Below are positions 1,574 through 10,047 of a stretch of DNA of 37,537 bases, one piece after another (positions within the stretch are counted from its first letter, which is position 1; each line of letters opens with the position of its first letter). The notes under the pieces are model-generated. The model did no database searches. It was not told where the DNA came from and saw only the letters and a list, made by a program, of their open reading frames with translations. Position numbers and translations under genes: made by a program. Source of the DNA: Deltaproteobacteria bacterium (GTDB lineage: Bacteria; Desulfobacterota; Desulfobacteria; Desulfobacterales; UBA11574); the NCBI GenBank assembly GCA_019308685.1, contig JAFDHQ010000010.1, positions 1-37,537 of the forward strand, given 5' to 3'.

Positions 1574-2821
1574 ATGTTCGGCTTCAATAAGGATTTTATG
1601 GTTATGAATGATAGACCAACAGCAACAAATATAACCTTACATAAGAAAAAAGATAAATTGTGCCCGGATAGAATATGGATAATATCTAAAGGTAGATATA
1701 CAAATTTTGATTTGAGCCGGATTTGGGAGGGAGTTAAAAAACAGACGGCAATGGTATATAACATATCCGAGTTGGCCAGGTATTTGCTTAATCCCAATCC
1801 TCTTCAAATAAAAAAAAAGCTGGTTGGATGTGAAATTCATTATCGCACGCCTCTTTATAACGTAAAAGAAAATATCAGGAAACTATTACCACAAAAATTG
1901 CGCGGACTGTTAAAAGATAATCAAATCCCAGTTGAAGTGCTCAAATCAGATTGGGATACAGACAACAGTCCTGGTAAAGACGATAATTTTGAGTCCCATT
2001 TAAATAAAATAACAGAACTATTAAGACCTTATAATCCTATAATAAAAAGCCTAAACAAAATAGATCCAAGTAAAGTATTTGATGTGGTCGGAATTTGTGA
2101 GGATATTGGAGGGCATCTTTCAAATTTAAATATTCCGGGGAGTATAATGGATAAACTTAATTATATCAGAGCGAATATCTCGAAAGATGTCGGAGTCATC
2201 CTTGAAAAAGCTTATATTGCCGACGGATTGTTTGAGATGAAAGGATTCAATTTCAAATCCTTTGATAAAAATAAATCATTTCGGTTAATCAGATTTTTAA
2301 TAAACGGAATATCAAAAGCCTGTGTTCTCGATTCTGATAATAAAGTTGAATTCTGGATTGATGACATTAAACTTGTTCAATACATGCTGTTGTTTGATCA
2401 ATTAATTGAAATAGATCCGAAATTGAATAGTTCTCTTAGCCTGTGCACTGCCGGAAAAGCAGAACCACTGAAACTCCTTTTTAGCAAACCCCTTGAGATC
2501 GATTATTCCGAAGCTCATCTGCCTGAAGTATATAAAGGGGTGTTTGAGAAACTTAATATAGGGGCAAGTAAAAAAAATGTGGTTAAGCGTGTGTTAAATA
2601 AATCTCAAGTTGGAATTTCGTTCAACTATGTTCCTATGTCCGTTTATGATAAAAGGAGGTTATTTGTCAATTTTTCTGTGATGCATAATTTTAAAGCTCT
2701 TGAGCCCATAAAAAATGATTTGCCTCTGGTATATTCAGAAATTAATAAGATAGCTTCTGTGACCGAAGCAGGAAAATTTTATTTGTTGGACTCTTTCAGG
2801 GGATACAAAGATGACAAGTGA
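1574..2821 (+). CDS. Uncharacterised protein, coupled to downstream LonB-like protease
   Basis: 415-aa ORF, no family recognised. Stop (2819-2821) overlaps the ATG of the next gene at 2811. AAGGA upstream of ATG 1598/1604 suggests the true start may be 24-30 nt inside the ORF call. Confidence 0.8.
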   Translation: MFGFNKDFMVMNDRPTATNITLHKKKDKLCPDRIWIISKGRYTNFDLSRIWEGVKKQTAMVYNISELARYLLNPNPLQIKKKLVGCEIHYRTPLYNVKENIRKLLPQKLRGLLKDNQIPVEVLKSDWDTDNSPGKDDNFESHLNKITELLRPYNPIIKSLNKIDPSKVFDVVGICEDIGGHLSNLNIPGSIMDKLNYIRANISKDVGVILEKAYIADGLFEMKGFNFKSFDKNKSFRLIRFLINGISKACVLDSDNKVEFWIDDIKLVQYMLLFDQLIEIDPKLNSSLSLCTAGKAEPLKLLFSKPLEIDYSEAHLPEVYKGVFEKLNIGASKKNVVKRVLNKSQVGISFNYVPMSVYDKRRLFVNFSVMHNFKALEPIKNDLPLVYSEINKIASVTEAGKFYLLDSFRGYKDDK

Positions 2822-5075
2822 TTATAAAGAAAATGATTACGCCTGGATAAAAGAGTTGATGCATTATCCTCAGACTCTGGAACAACAGCTTTCTTTTTTT
2901 AAGGATACCTCCAAAATTCCAGTGCCGAAAGACCCCATCGAACAGGTGATCTTTCAGGATAAAGCCAAAAGGGCCATAAGGAAAATCGCTCAAAACAAAG
3001 GACATATCCTTATGGTCGGAAGACCGGGGACTGGGAAATCAATGCTTGCGAATATGTTTAACCAAGTTATTGATAAGTCGCTTGGAGACTATTTAAGGCC
3101 CAAGCAATCTATTGTGGCCTACCCGGGGAAAGATAAAAATAACATACGAATTGCCTATGAAAATTCTGAAAAAATAGATGACCGGATTGCAGAGATAACT
3201 AACAGGATAGTATCTGTAGAAGAAAGTATGGATGATTTCAGTCTTTCTGATCAGATAAATGCCGCCAGGAAAGTAAAAAAATACCTGCTTTGGGCCACAG
3301 GTATTGGTGTTATTGCCGGCTTTTTCTTTGCTCCGGCATTTATTGCCACAGGACTAACCGGTATCGGTGCAATATTCATGTACATGCAGGAGAGTAATTA
3401 CAGAGTGCAGGAGAAAATACAAAATGAGGCCTTTACCGGTAAAAAAAACGCTGTCAAGCATCTATATGATATGGTTCCGGAGGTTTTATACGATCCCAGA
3501 AAAGATAATGGGTTAATGGCTAGAATATCCGAACCGGATTCCAGAAATATGAAAGGAGGGTTCAGACATGATCCCTACCAGTCAGGCAATCTTCATACCC
3601 CGGCTCATAAGCGGGCGTATTTGGGCGCCCACGCAAAGTCTCCGATTATTTACATTGATGAGTTAAAAACACTTATTAAGGTGGGGTATATGTCTGACCT
3701 GCTGGAGATAATGCAGAACAAAAAGTTTATTCTTGAAGGTGGCAGGAACACAGGAAGCGGTTCTGCGGATCGGTCGGAAAATCATTTAAAAGCCGATAAT
3801 ATAATCGTTGCCTGCTGCAATCATGATACTCTGGAATTTCTTCAGAAAGAAGGAGATGGTGCTTTTCTCAGTAGAATAGAAGACAAAGGAGAAATTATTC
3901 ATTTGGAAAGTGCAGTTCCTGAAACATCGAAAAATATCGAACAGGTTGTACAATATGTAAAGCAGGAAATACTTAATCTTGGGGAAGAATTCAAGGATGC
4001 CTGGGAAGGGGTTATAGAAAAGGAAGGTTACGAAGGGGTCAGGAAAAGAAGTGAGCACATATTCGGTAAACGTCTTCCTGATGATTACAAATTGAAGGAG
4101 CGAGAGTTTTCCAGAGATGCTGTTTTGGAAATAATAAAGGAGCTTCGATGTCGTGCGTCAGATAAAAAATTAAGCAGTATCCTAAGACCGATAAATGGTA
4201 TAATCAAGACTGCCGAGTTTGAGGCAATACTCGATAATGCCCAATTGGTTTTGCCGGAACATGTTAGGCGTGCTCTGGATAAGCATTTAAGCCTTGAGGG
4301 AGAAATCTCCAAAGAAATGGTTAAGCACAAGAAGGATCTTAAGAAATACATCGGCGCAATGACGGATTCTATCGGTTATGTTGTGGGCTTGGCAGTAAAT
4401 TATTCAAAATCGAGCGGGCAAATGTTCGGCCAACCGTTGCCGATCCATTGCCAAATTAATGCAGGAGGTTCAGACACGGTTGTTGCCCCCGGCAGAATCG
4501 GTGATATTGCCAAGGGTGCTGCTCAGAATGTTAGAGCTTCAATAAAAAAAGTATTGCAGAAAATCGGGGCACCTTATGTGGGATATGAAATGCATGTGGA
4601 GTATATACAGGCCCATAGTGGTGTGGAGGGGGATAGTGCTTCCGTTGCCATGGATATTGCAATTATATCAGATTATATAAAGCAGCCGGTCAATCAAAAA
4701 ATAGGAGTAACCGGCTCCCTGACGGGTGATATTATTCTGGCTGTCGGAGGAGTTACTGAAAAAATTATATCCATAATGGATCCTGTTCTTGGAATGGAAG
4801 GCGCATGCATTCCTTGGCAGAACAAGCACGACATAGAACCCCTTTTAATAAACACAGAATATGAATATATCCAGAATGAAGAAGTCCCGGGCATTAGAAT
4901 CTACAGGGTTCAAAACAAAAAGGATCCTTTTGACATATATTTTTGCAAGACGAAATATAATGCTTATCAGATATTGATGGGCCTGGACAAACAAGAAGTT
5001 GAAACTAGGATGACCATGAGAAGTAAGGAAGATTTAGAGTTTATTCAAAGAATGAAAGGCACGTTGCCCAATTGA
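2811..5075 (+). CDS. LonB-type (archaeal-like) membrane-anchored ATP-dependent Lon protease, S16 family
   Basis: Walker A GRPGTGKSMLAN, Walker B PIIYIDEL, sensor-1 region NIIVACCNHD. Hydrophobic segment KKYLLWATGIGVIAGFFFAPAFIATGLTGIGAIFMYM between Walker A and B. Protease motif HSGVEGDSASVAMD (Ser codon 4635-4637) and VGGVTEKI (Lys). Confidence 0.9.
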   Translation: MTSDYKENDYAWIKELMHYPQTLEQQLSFFKDTSKIPVPKDPIEQVIFQDKAKRAIRKIAQNKGHILMVGRPGTGKSMLANMFNQVIDKSLGDYLRPKQSIVAYPGKDKNNIRIAYENSEKIDDRIAEITNRIVSVEESMDDFSLSDQINAARKVKKYLLWATGIGVIAGFFFAPAFIATGLTGIGAIFMYMQESNYRVQEKIQNEAFTGKKNAVKHLYDMVPEVLYDPRKDNGLMARISEPDSRNMKGGFRHDPYQSGNLHTPAHKRAYLGAHAKSPIIYIDELKTLIKVGYMSDLLEIMQNKKFILEGGRNTGSGSADRSENHLKADNIIVACCNHDTLEFLQKEGDGAFLSRIEDKGEIIHLESAVPETSKNIEQVVQYVKQEILNLGEEFKDAWEGVIEKEGYEGVRKRSEHIFGKRLPDDYKLKEREFSRDAVLEIIKELRCRASDKKLSSILRPINGIIKTAEFEAILDNAQLVLPEHVRRALDKHLSLEGEISKEMVKHKKDLKKYIGAMTDSIGYVVGLAVNYSKSSGQMFGQPLPIHCQINAGGSDTVVAPGRIGDIAKGAAQNVRASIKKVLQKIGAPYVGYEMHVEYIQAHSGVEGDSASVAMDIAIISDYIKQPVNQKIGVTGSLTGDIILAVGGVTEKIISIMDPVLGMEGACIPWQNKHDIEPLLINTEYEYIQNEEVPGIRIYRVQNKKDPFDIYFCKTKYNAYQILMGLDKQEVETRMTMRSKEDLEFIQRMKGTLPN

Positions 5076-5418: not shown

Positions 5419-7665
5419 ATGGCAAAAACAATACCCATGCAAAATAATAATCCTGCCAAGACGATCCCGTCAAGGAAATCAAGCCTGAAATCGACCATCA
5501 TGGATCAATCCGGAGCTGGAAAGGTCAAGATTGGAGAGATTTTATGCAAAGAGGGCTACATTACCGGCACCCAACTGGAAGATGCTCTAAACTATCAGAA
5601 AAAAAATAAGGGGCGCCTGGGAAACATACTGATTAAACTCGGATATATCGAAGATGATACCATTGTAAGTGTTCTGAGCCGTATCCATAACTATCCTGCC
5701 GTATTATTATCAAAAACAACGCCTGATCCCGAAGCCATCAAGCTCGTACCGTATGAAATGGCTAAAAAATACTTGGCTTTTCCTATTAGATTCAAAGGAG
5801 AAGATCTTGTCGTTACCATGGCGGAGCCGACCGACACCTCTGCTGTTGCTGATTTGCAGAACGAAGTTCAAAAAAGCATCAGTATCAGTATTTCTACCGA
5901 GAAAGATATCATTGAGGCATACAGAACTCATTATAAAATAGAGGATGAAGAGTATAACAGTTTACTTGGCCAAAAAGAGGTAGTCTCCGAAGAAGAAGAT
6001 GAACCTGTTGCATTAGTCGATGACTTCGGTTCACTGGTTTCCGAGGCTGTGGGGGAGTTGGAGTTAGTAGATACAGGAAGCATCGACGTTGCAGATGAAT
6101 ACACGGCATCTGATGCTCCCATTATAAAACTGGTGAACGGCATTCTGGTAAAAGCCATTAATGAGGGCGTTAGCGATATTCATATCGAACCTTTTGAGAC
6201 GATGTTGCAGGTAAGATATAGACTGGATGGCTACCTTTTTAAATCCATGAATCTGCCCACCACTATAAAAAATGCTGTAAATTCAAGACTTAAAATTTTA
6301 GCCGGACTTAATATCGCCGAACGTCGTGTACCGCAGGACGGCAGGATAAAAATGAACTTCGGGAAAAGAAAGACCATCGATTTTCGCGTTTCTACATTGC
6401 CGACCCTTTTTGGTGAGAGCATTGTCATGCGTGTCCTTGACCAGAGCTCACTTAGTGTAGATCTCACTAGAATGGGGTTTGAAAAAGAAACGCTTAATAC
6501 ACTTGAACGTTGTATTTTCCGACCTTATGGTATGCTGCTTGTTACCGGCCCCACCGGAAGCGGTAAGACAACTACTTTATACTCGGTTCTAAACAAACTG
6601 AATAGAGAGGATAATAAAATACTTACGGTTGAGGATCCAGTAGAATTTAACTTCAGGGGAATCAATCAGGTGAATGTCAAAGATGATGTGGGAATGACAT
6701 TTGCTTCGGCTCTCAAGGCCTTCTTACGCCAGGACCCTGATATTATTATGGTGGGTGAAATTAGAGATTTGGAAACTGCCGAGATCGCCATAAAGGCCGC
6801 CATGACGGGACATCTGGTTTTCAGTACACTCCACACAAACGACTGTCCTTCAACTGTTGGACGTCTTTTGGATATCGGCATACCGTCCTATCTGGTGGCA
6901 TCTTCATTGACAATGGTTCTTTCTCAACGCCTCGCACGAAAACTTTGTCCCAAATGTAAGGTTAAGGATAAAAATTTTAATCCGGCCGAATTGGAAGATA
7001 TGGGATTCTCCTCAGATGAAATATCCAAGCTTGAAATATACGGACCCGGGGGGTGTTCAGAATGTATGGGTGCCGGGTATAGAGGGCGCGTCGGGCTGTT
7101 TGAACTTATGGAGGTAACCGATAGGATTTCCAGAATAATCAGTGCCCAGGTGTCGGAAGACCAATTGAGAAAGACCGCGTTACTGGAAGGCATGGTTACC
7201 TTAAGAGATGCAGGTCTGGAAAAAATACGTCAGGGGGTGACTTCTGTCGAGGAAATATTGAAGCGGACAACCGTAACCAAAAGCGCCGTTCCCGCATATC
7301 TTGCTGATCCTGAAGTAGAGCAATATGAAAACAAAGCCGTCATTTTCCGGGAAGGTAATAGGGGATCGGACTTTTTTAAACTAATCAAAGGTGAATTAGT
7401 TGTAGTGAGAAACGGCAAAAAGATCGCCGATATTATGCAACCCGGAGAATATTTCGGAGAAATATCAGCCATAACCGGCAAGCCGAGGTCTGAAACAGTG
7501 ATGTCAAGAGGCAATTCGGTTGTCCAACGCTTTCCGGGTGATAAGTTGCCTGAAATCATCGAAAAATATCCGGATATCACGACAAAATTATTAGAAATAA
7601 ATGCTGATCGTCTAAATCATGCACATAATATTATTGTAAATATTATGAATAAAAAAATGCCATGA
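5419..7665 (+). CDS. PilB/GspE-family type IV pilus/type II secretion ATPase with N-terminal MshEN-like domain and C-terminal cyclic-nucleotide-binding domain
   Basis: MshEN-like KIGEILCKEGYITGTQLEDALNYQ...RLGNILIKLGYI; Walker A GPTGSGKTTTLY; VGEIRDLETAEIAIKAAMTGHLVFSTLHTND; CPKC...CSEC zinc motif; C-terminal cNBD with phosphate-cassette-like FGEISAITGKPRSETV. Confidence 0.9.
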   Translation: MAKTIPMQNNNPAKTIPSRKSSLKSTIMDQSGAGKVKIGEILCKEGYITGTQLEDALNYQKKNKGRLGNILIKLGYIEDDTIVSVLSRIHNYPAVLLSKTTPDPEAIKLVPYEMAKKYLAFPIRFKGEDLVVTMAEPTDTSAVADLQNEVQKSISISISTEKDIIEAYRTHYKIEDEEYNSLLGQKEVVSEEEDEPVALVDDFGSLVSEAVGELELVDTGSIDVADEYTASDAPIIKLVNGILVKAINEGVSDIHIEPFETMLQVRYRLDGYLFKSMNLPTTIKNAVNSRLKILAGLNIAERRVPQDGRIKMNFGKRKTIDFRVSTLPTLFGESIVMRVLDQSSLSVDLTRMGFEKETLNTLERCIFRPYGMLLVTGPTGSGKTTTLYSVLNKLNREDNKILTVEDPVEFNFRGINQVNVKDDVGMTFASALKAFLRQDPDIIMVGEIRDLETAEIAIKAAMTGHLVFSTLHTNDCPSTVGRLLDIGIPSYLVASSLTMVLSQRLARKLCPKCKVKDKNFNPAELEDMGFSSDEISKLEIYGPGGCSECMGAGYRGRVGLFELMEVTDRISRIISAQVSEDQLRKTALLEGMVTLRDAGLEKIRQGVTSVEEILKRTTVTKSAVPAYLADPEVEQYENKAVIFREGNRGSDFFKLIKGELVVVRNGKKIADIMQPGEYFGEISAITGKPRSETVMSRGNSVVQRFPGDKLPEIIEKYPDITTKLLEINADRLNHAHNIIVNIMNKKMP

Positions 7666-8723
7666 AAATAAAATGTTCGAAATGCAACAAGGTATATAAA
7701 ATTCCAGACGAGAAACTTCCGGCCGGGAAAAAGTATGCCGTTCAATGTCCGGCCTGCAAAAACCGTATCGTAATCGATTTGCAGTCTCAGCCAACACAAA
7801 AACAATCTCTTAACACGTCAAAATCCGTTGAAAAAAAGGAGACGGTCTTATCGTTGGGCCAAAAGCGTCCCAGCGGCATGACTCTAAAATACGGTATTTT
7901 ACGATCATTGGGTGATTTACCGGCCATGCCTCATATTGTGCAAAAGGCCCAAGAGATTATTGCGAAACCGGATTCAAATTTGAAGGAGCTTTCGAGTCTA
8001 ATAGAGATAGAACAGGCAATCGCAACCAGAGTTTTGAAATTGGCGAATTCTACATATTACGGTTTAAGCGGAAAGGTTTCTTCGGTTCAGCATGCGTCTG
8101 TTTTGCTGGGGTATAAAACTCTTGGAGAACTCATAACAGTGGCGGGTATTTCAGGCCTGATGGATAAGAATCTGAACGGATACGATTTGAGTTCGGAAGA
8201 TCTGTGGCGACATTCCATAGCTGTTGCCGTTGGTTCACGGATTATTGCGGGCAGGAAAGATCCGGAATTCGGTAATGAAGCATTTTTTGCAGGACTGGTG
8301 CATGACGCGGGAAAAGTTGTACTTGATCAACATGTTTACGAAAGAAAGGACGATTTTGAAACGTTTATGGGAAATGGTCAACATACTTTCCTGAGTGCTG
8401 AAAAAGAGATTCTGGGATTCGATCACTCAGAAATGGCCTTTGAATTATGTCAGAAATGGCAGATTCCTTCAAATCAAAGCGATGCCATAAAATTTCATCA
8501 TTGTCCCTCAAAATCCGAAGGCAATGAATTGGCTTACATACTTCATCTGGCAGATTTTATCGCAATGATGAACGGATATGGAGCAGGTCAGGACAGTTCA
8601 ATGTATCAGATGGAAGAAGGAACCCTGGAATTTTTGTCCCTGCAAGATAAAGATCTAAATGACATCCAGAGTCAAGTTATTGAATCTGTTGAAAAAATGT
8701 TGCAAGAGATACCTTCCGGTTGA
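7662..8723 (+). CDS. HDOD-domain signalling protein with N-terminal MJ0042-type zinc ribbon
   Basis: ATGA overlap with previous gene. N-terminus MKIKCSKCNKVYKIPDEKLPAGKKYAVQCPACKNRI (CxxC...CxxC). HDOD features LPAMPHIVQKAQEII, LSSLIEIEQAIATRVLKLANSTYYGL, HSIAVAVGSRIIA, FFAGLVHDAGKVVLDQ. Confidence 0.88.
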   Translation: MKIKCSKCNKVYKIPDEKLPAGKKYAVQCPACKNRIVIDLQSQPTQKQSLNTSKSVEKKETVLSLGQKRPSGMTLKYGILRSLGDLPAMPHIVQKAQEIIAKPDSNLKELSSLIEIEQAIATRVLKLANSTYYGLSGKVSSVQHASVLLGYKTLGELITVAGISGLMDKNLNGYDLSSEDLWRHSIAVAVGSRIIAGRKDPEFGNEAFFAGLVHDAGKVVLDQHVYERKDDFETFMGNGQHTFLSAEKEILGFDHSEMAFELCQKWQIPSNQSDAIKFHHCPSKSEGNELAYILHLADFIAMMNGYGAGQDSSMYQMEEGTLEFLSLQDKDLNDIQSQVIESVEKMLQEIPSG

Positions 8724-8841: not shown

Positions 8842-10047
8842 TCATGAGTTCATTTTTTTAAGCAATGGAATAAATTTATGGTTGGCTTTTGGAAATGGAT
8901 ACTGATCAATGTCTTGGAGTTTTATCCAGAGGTGATCTATGGGTCCGTTCAATTGAACATTGCCCGCCAGGTATTTGCAGCAAAATACATCCACACGAAT
9001 TTTAAAATGAGTATAAGCATGTTTTACCCGCATGAGGAAAGAACTGACTTCCACGGAAATATTCACTTCTTCTTGGATCTCTCTGACACAGGCTGTTTCT
9101 GCGCTTTCGCCTTTTCTAACCTTTCCGCCCGGAAATTCCCATAGCCCGCCCAAGAGTCCGTCAAGTTTTCTTCGGGTAATTAAAACATGGGTATTTTTAA
9201 ACACAACACCCACGGCAATATGATACTCCGGTCTGGGCGGACTTTTGATCCGTTGGGGATAGTTATCTATGGTTTGGAATCGATAAGTACGGCAATAGGA
9301 TAGAAGAGGGCATATCCCGCAATTTGGGTTTTTCGGTTTACAAATCAATGCCCCCAACTCCATTAATGCCTGGTTAAACATACCGGGTTGTTTCGGATCT
9401 AACAGCTTTTCGGATGCCTCTTTGAATATTTTATACGAAGCGGATTTGTTTACAGGCGCATTTATCTGAAGCATACGGGCAAGCACTCGCTTGACATTTC
9501 CGTCTACTACGGCATGGGGTTTATGAAAGGCGATACTTAATACGGCGGATGCGATGTAATCCCCCACCCCCGATAAGCTTTTAAAATCATGCCAGTTACC
9601 GGGAATTCTTCCTTGGTGTTTTTCAAGCACCGTCTTTGCCGCCCGATGCAGATTTCGTGCCCGTGCATAGTATCCCATTCCCTCCCAGACCTTGAGTACT
9701 TCGTTTATATCGGATTGAGCCAGAGATTGCACATTCGGAAAATGAAAAAGAAAAGTCCGGTAATAGGGCAGAACCGTGTTCACCTGGGTTTGCTGTAGCA
9801 TGACTTCAGACACCCATATGCAATAGGGATCATCTGTTTCACGCCAGGGCAGAGAACGTTTGTTTTTTTTATACCATAAGAAGAGTTCGGATTGGATTTG
9901 ACGGATCTTTTTGGCTGTCATATTAAGACAATTCATCGCTGGATCGGAATAGTCATCCGGGACCTTTAAAAACAGGCAGATCTTCCAAAAAGGACAAAAG
10001 ATGTGTAAATCAATGCCATGAAAATTATTCTTTAGGGTGACACTCAA
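8842..10047 (-). CDS. mutY: A/G-specific adenine glycosylase MutY with C-terminal NUDIX domain; true start probably 9936 or 9921
   Basis: HhH-GPD region (WVSEVMLQQTQVNTVLPYY, LSGVGDYIASAVLSIAF...VVDGNVKRVLAR); FeS Cys motif C-x6-C-x2-C-x5-C (CKPKNPNCGICPLLSYC); NUDIX box GGKVRKGESAETACVREIQEEVN. The N-terminal ~37 aa look non-homologous and overlap the upstream gene. Confidence 0.95.
   Translation of the reverse strand: MSVTLKNNFHGIDLHIFCPFWKICLFLKVPDDYSDPAMNCLNMTAKKIRQIQSELFLWYKKNKRSLPWRETDDPYCIWVSEVMLQQTQVNTVLPYYRTFLFHFPNVQSLAQSDINEVLKVWEGMGYYARARNLHRAAKTVLEKHQGRIPGNWHDFKSLSGVGDYIASAVLSIAFHKPHAVVDGNVKRVLARMLQINAPVNKSASYKIFKEASEKLLDPKQPGMFNQALMELGALICKPKNPNCGICPLLSYCRTYRFQTIDNYPQRIKSPPRPEYHIAVGVVFKNTHVLITRRKLDGLLGGLWEFPGGKVRKGESAETACVREIQEEVNISVEVSSFLMRVKHAYTHFKIRVDVFCCKYLAGNVQLNGPIDHLWIKLQDIDQYPFPKANHKFIPLLKKMNS

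Follow-up and report, generated by a model that had tools for sequence, protein, structure and literature searches.

The N-domain of LonA proteases is thought to bind substrates, and the known Lon adaptors are usually small proteins whose genes are unlinked to lon. Precedents for proteins that regulate Lon are SmiA (PMC9204741) and LarA (PMC10665427). Membrane-inserted LonB has been described as confined to archaea, the bacterial group with a LonB-like site having neither AAA+ motifs nor transmembrane regions (PMC3391209), or as mainly archaeal, with the LonBA of Firmicutes set apart (PMC9569914). The criterion for LonB is an Asp residue directly before the catalytic Ser (PMC9569914, PMC2605481), and a spacing of exactly 42 residues between the catalytic Ser and Lys is given for both Lon subfamilies (PMC9569914). 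Bacterial LonB-like sequences have been recognised by their active-site motif, one of them in Geobacter (PMC2605481), thus B-type sites in bacteria are already known.

The window analysed here, a stretch of 37,537 nucleotides, carries on its + strand two overlapping genes: A (1574..2821), encoding a 415-aa soluble protein of no known family, and LON (2811..5075), encoding a B-type Lon protease of 754 aa that combines an AAA+ module with a Ser-Lys peptidase and has a membrane insertion. The stop of A and the start of LON overlap by 11 nt (2811..2821, + strand, ATGACAAGTGA); the coordinates of the two frames and their overlap agree with those reported in the first-pass annotation. An AGGGGA run resembling a Shine-Dalgarno sequence for LON (2798..2803, + strand) lies within the last codons of A (R409-G410). 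When 28 homologous loci were compared, A was located upstream of LON, on one strand and in one order, in all 28. The junction was an overlap of 4, 8, 11 or 20 nt in 23/28 loci and a gap of 1-54 nt in the other five, and most loci had a G-rich, Shine-Dalgarno-like run in the final codons of A. No conserved third operon gene was found. The kept layout of the junction and the motifs conserved in the 28 homologues show that the locus did not arise by chance. Judging from the overlap and the gene layout, A and LON are probably made by coupled translation from one transcript. The Shine-Dalgarno run itself may explain an invariant Gly near the C terminus of A.

The residues expected of an AAA+ ATPase are in place in LON, all features of which lie on the + strand. 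Walker A (GRPGTGKS, residues 70-77, 3018..3041) and Walker B (IIYIDE, residues 279-284, 3645..3662) are conserved in the 28 homologues, with G70, P72-S77, D283 and E284 invariant, and so are the positions matching sensor 1 (N337), the Arg finger (R355) and sensor 2 (R459). Invariant as well are the catalytic Ser609 (in EGDSAS, 4635..4637), the D608 just before it (GDSA) and the catalytic Lys651 (in GGVTEK, 4761..4763). Between Walker A and Walker B there is a hydrophobic insertion (residues 158-190, 3282..3380), which was found in 28/28 homologues and in Natrinema LonB; it is the single hydrophobic stretch that a hydropathy scan detects in the LON of the window, its location in the membrane being predicted. 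The Walker motifs, the insertion between them and the GDSAS and GGVTEK motifs had been pointed out before, and all were seen again, conserved in the homologues. Because the ATPase residues and the Ser/Lys pair are invariant, LON is expected to be an active ATP-dependent protease.

In searches of Pfam and NCBIfam LON matched Lon_C (4.5e-14), LonB_AAA-LID and TIGR00764, and its best PDB relative was the archaeal LonB 3k1j (E=3.8e-54), far ahead of the LonA and LonC structures. The LonA-type N-terminal region is absent: Walker A starts at residue 70, and there was no match to the Pfam LON N-domain. The score for TIGR00764 (ATP-dependent protease LonB, equivalog) was 269.5 bits, about half the curated cut-off of 516.6. 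The catalytic Ser and Lys are 41 residues apart in 28/28 LON homologues, whereas the count is 42 for Natrinema LonB and also for the four measurable paralogues of the host (three LonA and one of GDSAS type). The shortening is located around the TGSLTGD loop (residues 634-640, 4710..4730), which is shorter than the TGSLSVRGD of Natrinema LonB and has other residues in place of the S-V-R-G of archaeal LonB. An insertion of about 40 residues (393-433, 3987..4109) is conserved in the clade, specific to it and absent from the LonB of Natrinema and T. onnurineus. In a tree built from the lid and protease region, where the row of 3k1j was partial, the LON clade stood alone on a long branch with a support of 1.0, and its placement relative to archaeal LonB and bacterial Lon-like proteases was weak (0.81). 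The description of LON as an archaeal-type LonB is therefore apt for the layout of the protein but not for its membership, in view of the separate clade, the 41-residue spacing, the additional insertion and the score below the TIGR00764 cut-off. Elsewhere in the host genome a Lon_C match (G000 C157:12494-13031) is split over two open frames of 572 and 97 aa and may be a Lon paralogue that is broken or has undergone a frameshift.

The two genes were found together in all genome samples. Among 96 related genomes A was present in 23 and LON in exactly those 23; among 395 genomes of the phylum A and LON occurred together in the same 9; and among 390 genomes of the class LON was detected in 60, with A adjoining it by coordinates in 59. 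The LON of the remaining genome (G721) is a cut-off copy, which starts 31 bases from the contig end at residue 410. Three genomes appeared to have A only: in one (G608) A runs into the contig end, in another (G666) it is broken by a run of N, and in the third (G538) the match extends over 48 residues (E 1.8e-4) and was not confirmed by tblastn. A 66-residue fragment of A without LON (L037) lies at a contig edge, and its genome carries the pair at another position. LON followed A in the fetched loci wherever the contig permitted. One genome (G668) has two complete pairs (C146 and C194; L115 and L116), whose LON proteins are both about 74% identical to that of the window; this could be due to duplication or to a mixed bin. 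Overall, the pair was found in about 65 sampled genomes, which are related and thus not independent, and none was shown to have one gene alone. The first-pass annotation had proposed that the 415-aa protein is a dedicated partner of the protease and that its homologues should be looked up for neighbouring LonB genes; they adjoin LON wherever the assembly allows. With this co-occurrence and adjacency across the class and phylum samples, the partnership of A and LON is well supported. The quality-control role that the first-pass annotation gave to the protease, and the part of adaptor, substrate or regulator that it gave to A, are conjectural.

The two proteins differ in their rate of change. 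The median pairwise identity is 38% for A and 68% for LON, and A evolves about 2.5 times faster as estimated from tree distances. The inter-genome distances of A and LON are correlated (r=0.84, a value reached by 0/2000 permutations), mostly as a result of shared descent, which alone would also yield a correlation. The two gene trees contain five pairs of well-supported conflicting splits, suggesting some exchange of partners or tree error. A faster A whose distances follow those of LON is the pattern to be expected if A lends specificity to a conserved machine.

In Pfam, NCBIfam, PADLOC and PDB, neither single A sequences nor the family gave any match above curated thresholds; the 415-aa protein thus stays without a characterised family, a match to which would have argued against the first reading of it. 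In Pfam, one member matched DUF6827 weakly (E 0.006) and two matched DUF4279; these hits were below cut-off and were rejected. Profile searches recognised neither a DNA-binding nor an enzymatic nor a receiver domain in A, profile comparison revealed no internal repeats, and a hydropathy scan no hydrophobic segment. The C terminus contains a conserved YLLDSxxG. Structure models of A, obtained in two AlphaFold runs with six sequences, were poor (mean pLDDT 45 for the full length and 58 for the C-terminal half), and a Foldseek search returned no match at E <= 0.001; for these reasons no fold is claimed for A, and nothing in its structure models points to an adaptor. A scan of genome contigs, which detects close relatives only, found relatives of A in five Desulfobacterales-type MAGs, the nearest in Eth-SRB2.

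A ~103-bp element just upstream of A (1343-1445) has at least 40 copies in the host genome at 97-100% identity and looks like a non-coding mobile repeat. Further upstream there is a gene for a protein with an FGE-sulfatase (SUMF1-like) domain (46-894). Downstream of the pair, the gene for a type II/IV secretion ATPase (MshEN + T2SSE) whose C terminus carries a cyclic-nucleotide-binding domain (5419-7665) overlaps by 4 nt the next gene, which encodes a zinc-ribbon HDOD protein (7662-8723); a second species of the genus likewise has these two genes downstream of its A and LON. A MutY-like HhH-GPD glycosylase with a C-terminal NUDIX_4 domain is encoded on the opposite strand (8842-10047, -). PADLOC matched neither A nor LON beyond weak generic AAA/Lon hits, and a defence system was rejected for lack of PADLOC support. 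Carriage of A by mobile elements was likewise rejected, as no match to A was found in phage, plasmid and viral-contig collections.

We regard it as probable that A and LON together make up a membrane protease of two obligate genes, with A as its specificity factor or as an activator or regulator. By homology to Lon, LON would assemble into an ATP-driven hexameric peptidase, which the hydrophobic insertion would anchor in the inner membrane, its ATPase and peptidase facing the cytosol. A, presumably produced from the transcript of LON through coupled translation, would dock on LON, a candidate site being the clade-specific insertion at residues 393-433, and the docked A may pick or license substrates at the membrane. 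This interpretation takes into account that LON has no LonA-type substrate-binding N-domain and comes with an inseparable soluble protein, which is best taken for the specificity or activation unit that LON lacks. A protein of 415 aa that is obligate differs from the usual known adaptor, thus A may possibly be a structural subunit or a substrate instead.

The idea that A is a dedicated substrate, a labile regulator degraded by LON until a signal stabilises it to act elsewhere in the cell, would suit a soluble protein that evolves faster than the protease. Receiver domains (PF00072) are found in 12/97 flanking genes as compared with roughly 2-5% genome-wide, a count that ignores phylogenetic kinship, and this excess is a weak hint at a signalling or regulatory setting, in which such a regulator would fit. 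However, none of the domains by which a regulator might act was recognised in A, and the YLLDSxxG is ambiguous as a sign of a C-terminal degradation tag, which was set aside since the Shine-Dalgarno run of LON shares those codons. We consider this explanation unlikely. Less likely still, A could be an inhibitor or gate that restrains a dangerous membrane protease, the two forming a pair of the toxin-antitoxin or defence kind. The strict co-occurrence, the two complete pairs in one genome and the patchy spread over the members of one genus (found in G000, G002 and G006, missing from G001 and G003-G005) are what such a pair might display. On the other hand, the PADLOC result does not favour it, there is no consistent defence family among the neighbours of the pair, the phage, plasmid and viral-contig collections yielded no A, and the identities of LON (81-93% within the family of the window, lower in others) look like descent with loss, not mobility.

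Lon-type proteases are common and neighbouring genes often persist in close relatives, therefore LON might be an ordinary bacterial LonB that stays next to an unrelated gene by operon inertia only. The pair, however, is kept in many families and also outside the class while the flanks change, which makes linkage by chance or inertia unlikely, and the uncoupled cases in the class and phylum samples are assembly edges or an unconfirmed weak match. Taken together, these observations leave very little room for inertia, and the obligate two-gene protease is the reading that we prefer.

The openly accessible literature searched did not describe a bacterial clade that unites intact AAA+ motifs and an internal membrane insertion with a 41-residue spacing and an obligate partner, and the passages that a keyword search retrieved from one review of archaeal membrane proteases (PMC9263693) name no adaptor of LonB. 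Little is known about how LonB chooses its substrates, and a bacterial LonB-like protease inseparable from its partner would offer a directly testable system for specificity conferred in trans at the membrane. Membrane-inserted LonB is placed only or mainly in archaea by published classifications (PMC3391209, PMC9569914), whereas LON is bacterial, and its clade would add a Lon subgroup with a changed Ser-Lys loop. We suggest, tentatively and with some doubt, that LON represents a new Lon subfamily of bacterial, membrane-anchored B-type enzymes with an altered active-site loop, which works only as a two-subunit protease with A, a protein of new fold, choosing substrates in trans.

Compared with known systems, LON is closest in layout to archaeal LonB (T. 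onnurineus 3k1j, Natrinema), with which it shares the membrane insertion in the AAA+ domain, the lack of an N-domain and the Asp before the catalytic Ser. It differs from archaeal LonB in being bacterial and forming its own clade, in the Ser-Lys spacing (41 and not 42), the ~40-residue insertion, additional segments in its C-terminal region and the score below the TIGR00764 cut-off, and in the obligate partner. LonC and the bacterial Lon-like proteases also have a LonB-like active-site consensus in bacteria (PMC3391209), but LonC is devoid of AAA+ consensus motifs and transmembrane segments, whereas LON has AAA+ motifs and a hydrophobic insertion. The LonBA of Firmicutes is likewise a bacterial Lon presumed to be membrane-bound; its active site is of A-type and its insertion domain is N-terminal (PMC9569914), in contrast to the B-type site and internal insertion of LON. 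Steering or activation of Lon by a separate protein has parallels in LonA with SmiA (B. subtilis), LarA (Caulobacter) and HspQ (PMC9204741, PMC10665427). No Pfam, NCBIfam or PDB family match links A to these three in searches made at the family level. Unlike them, A is a large protein that matches no family and whose gene always adjoins that of its protease, and this protease is of B-type with a membrane insertion.
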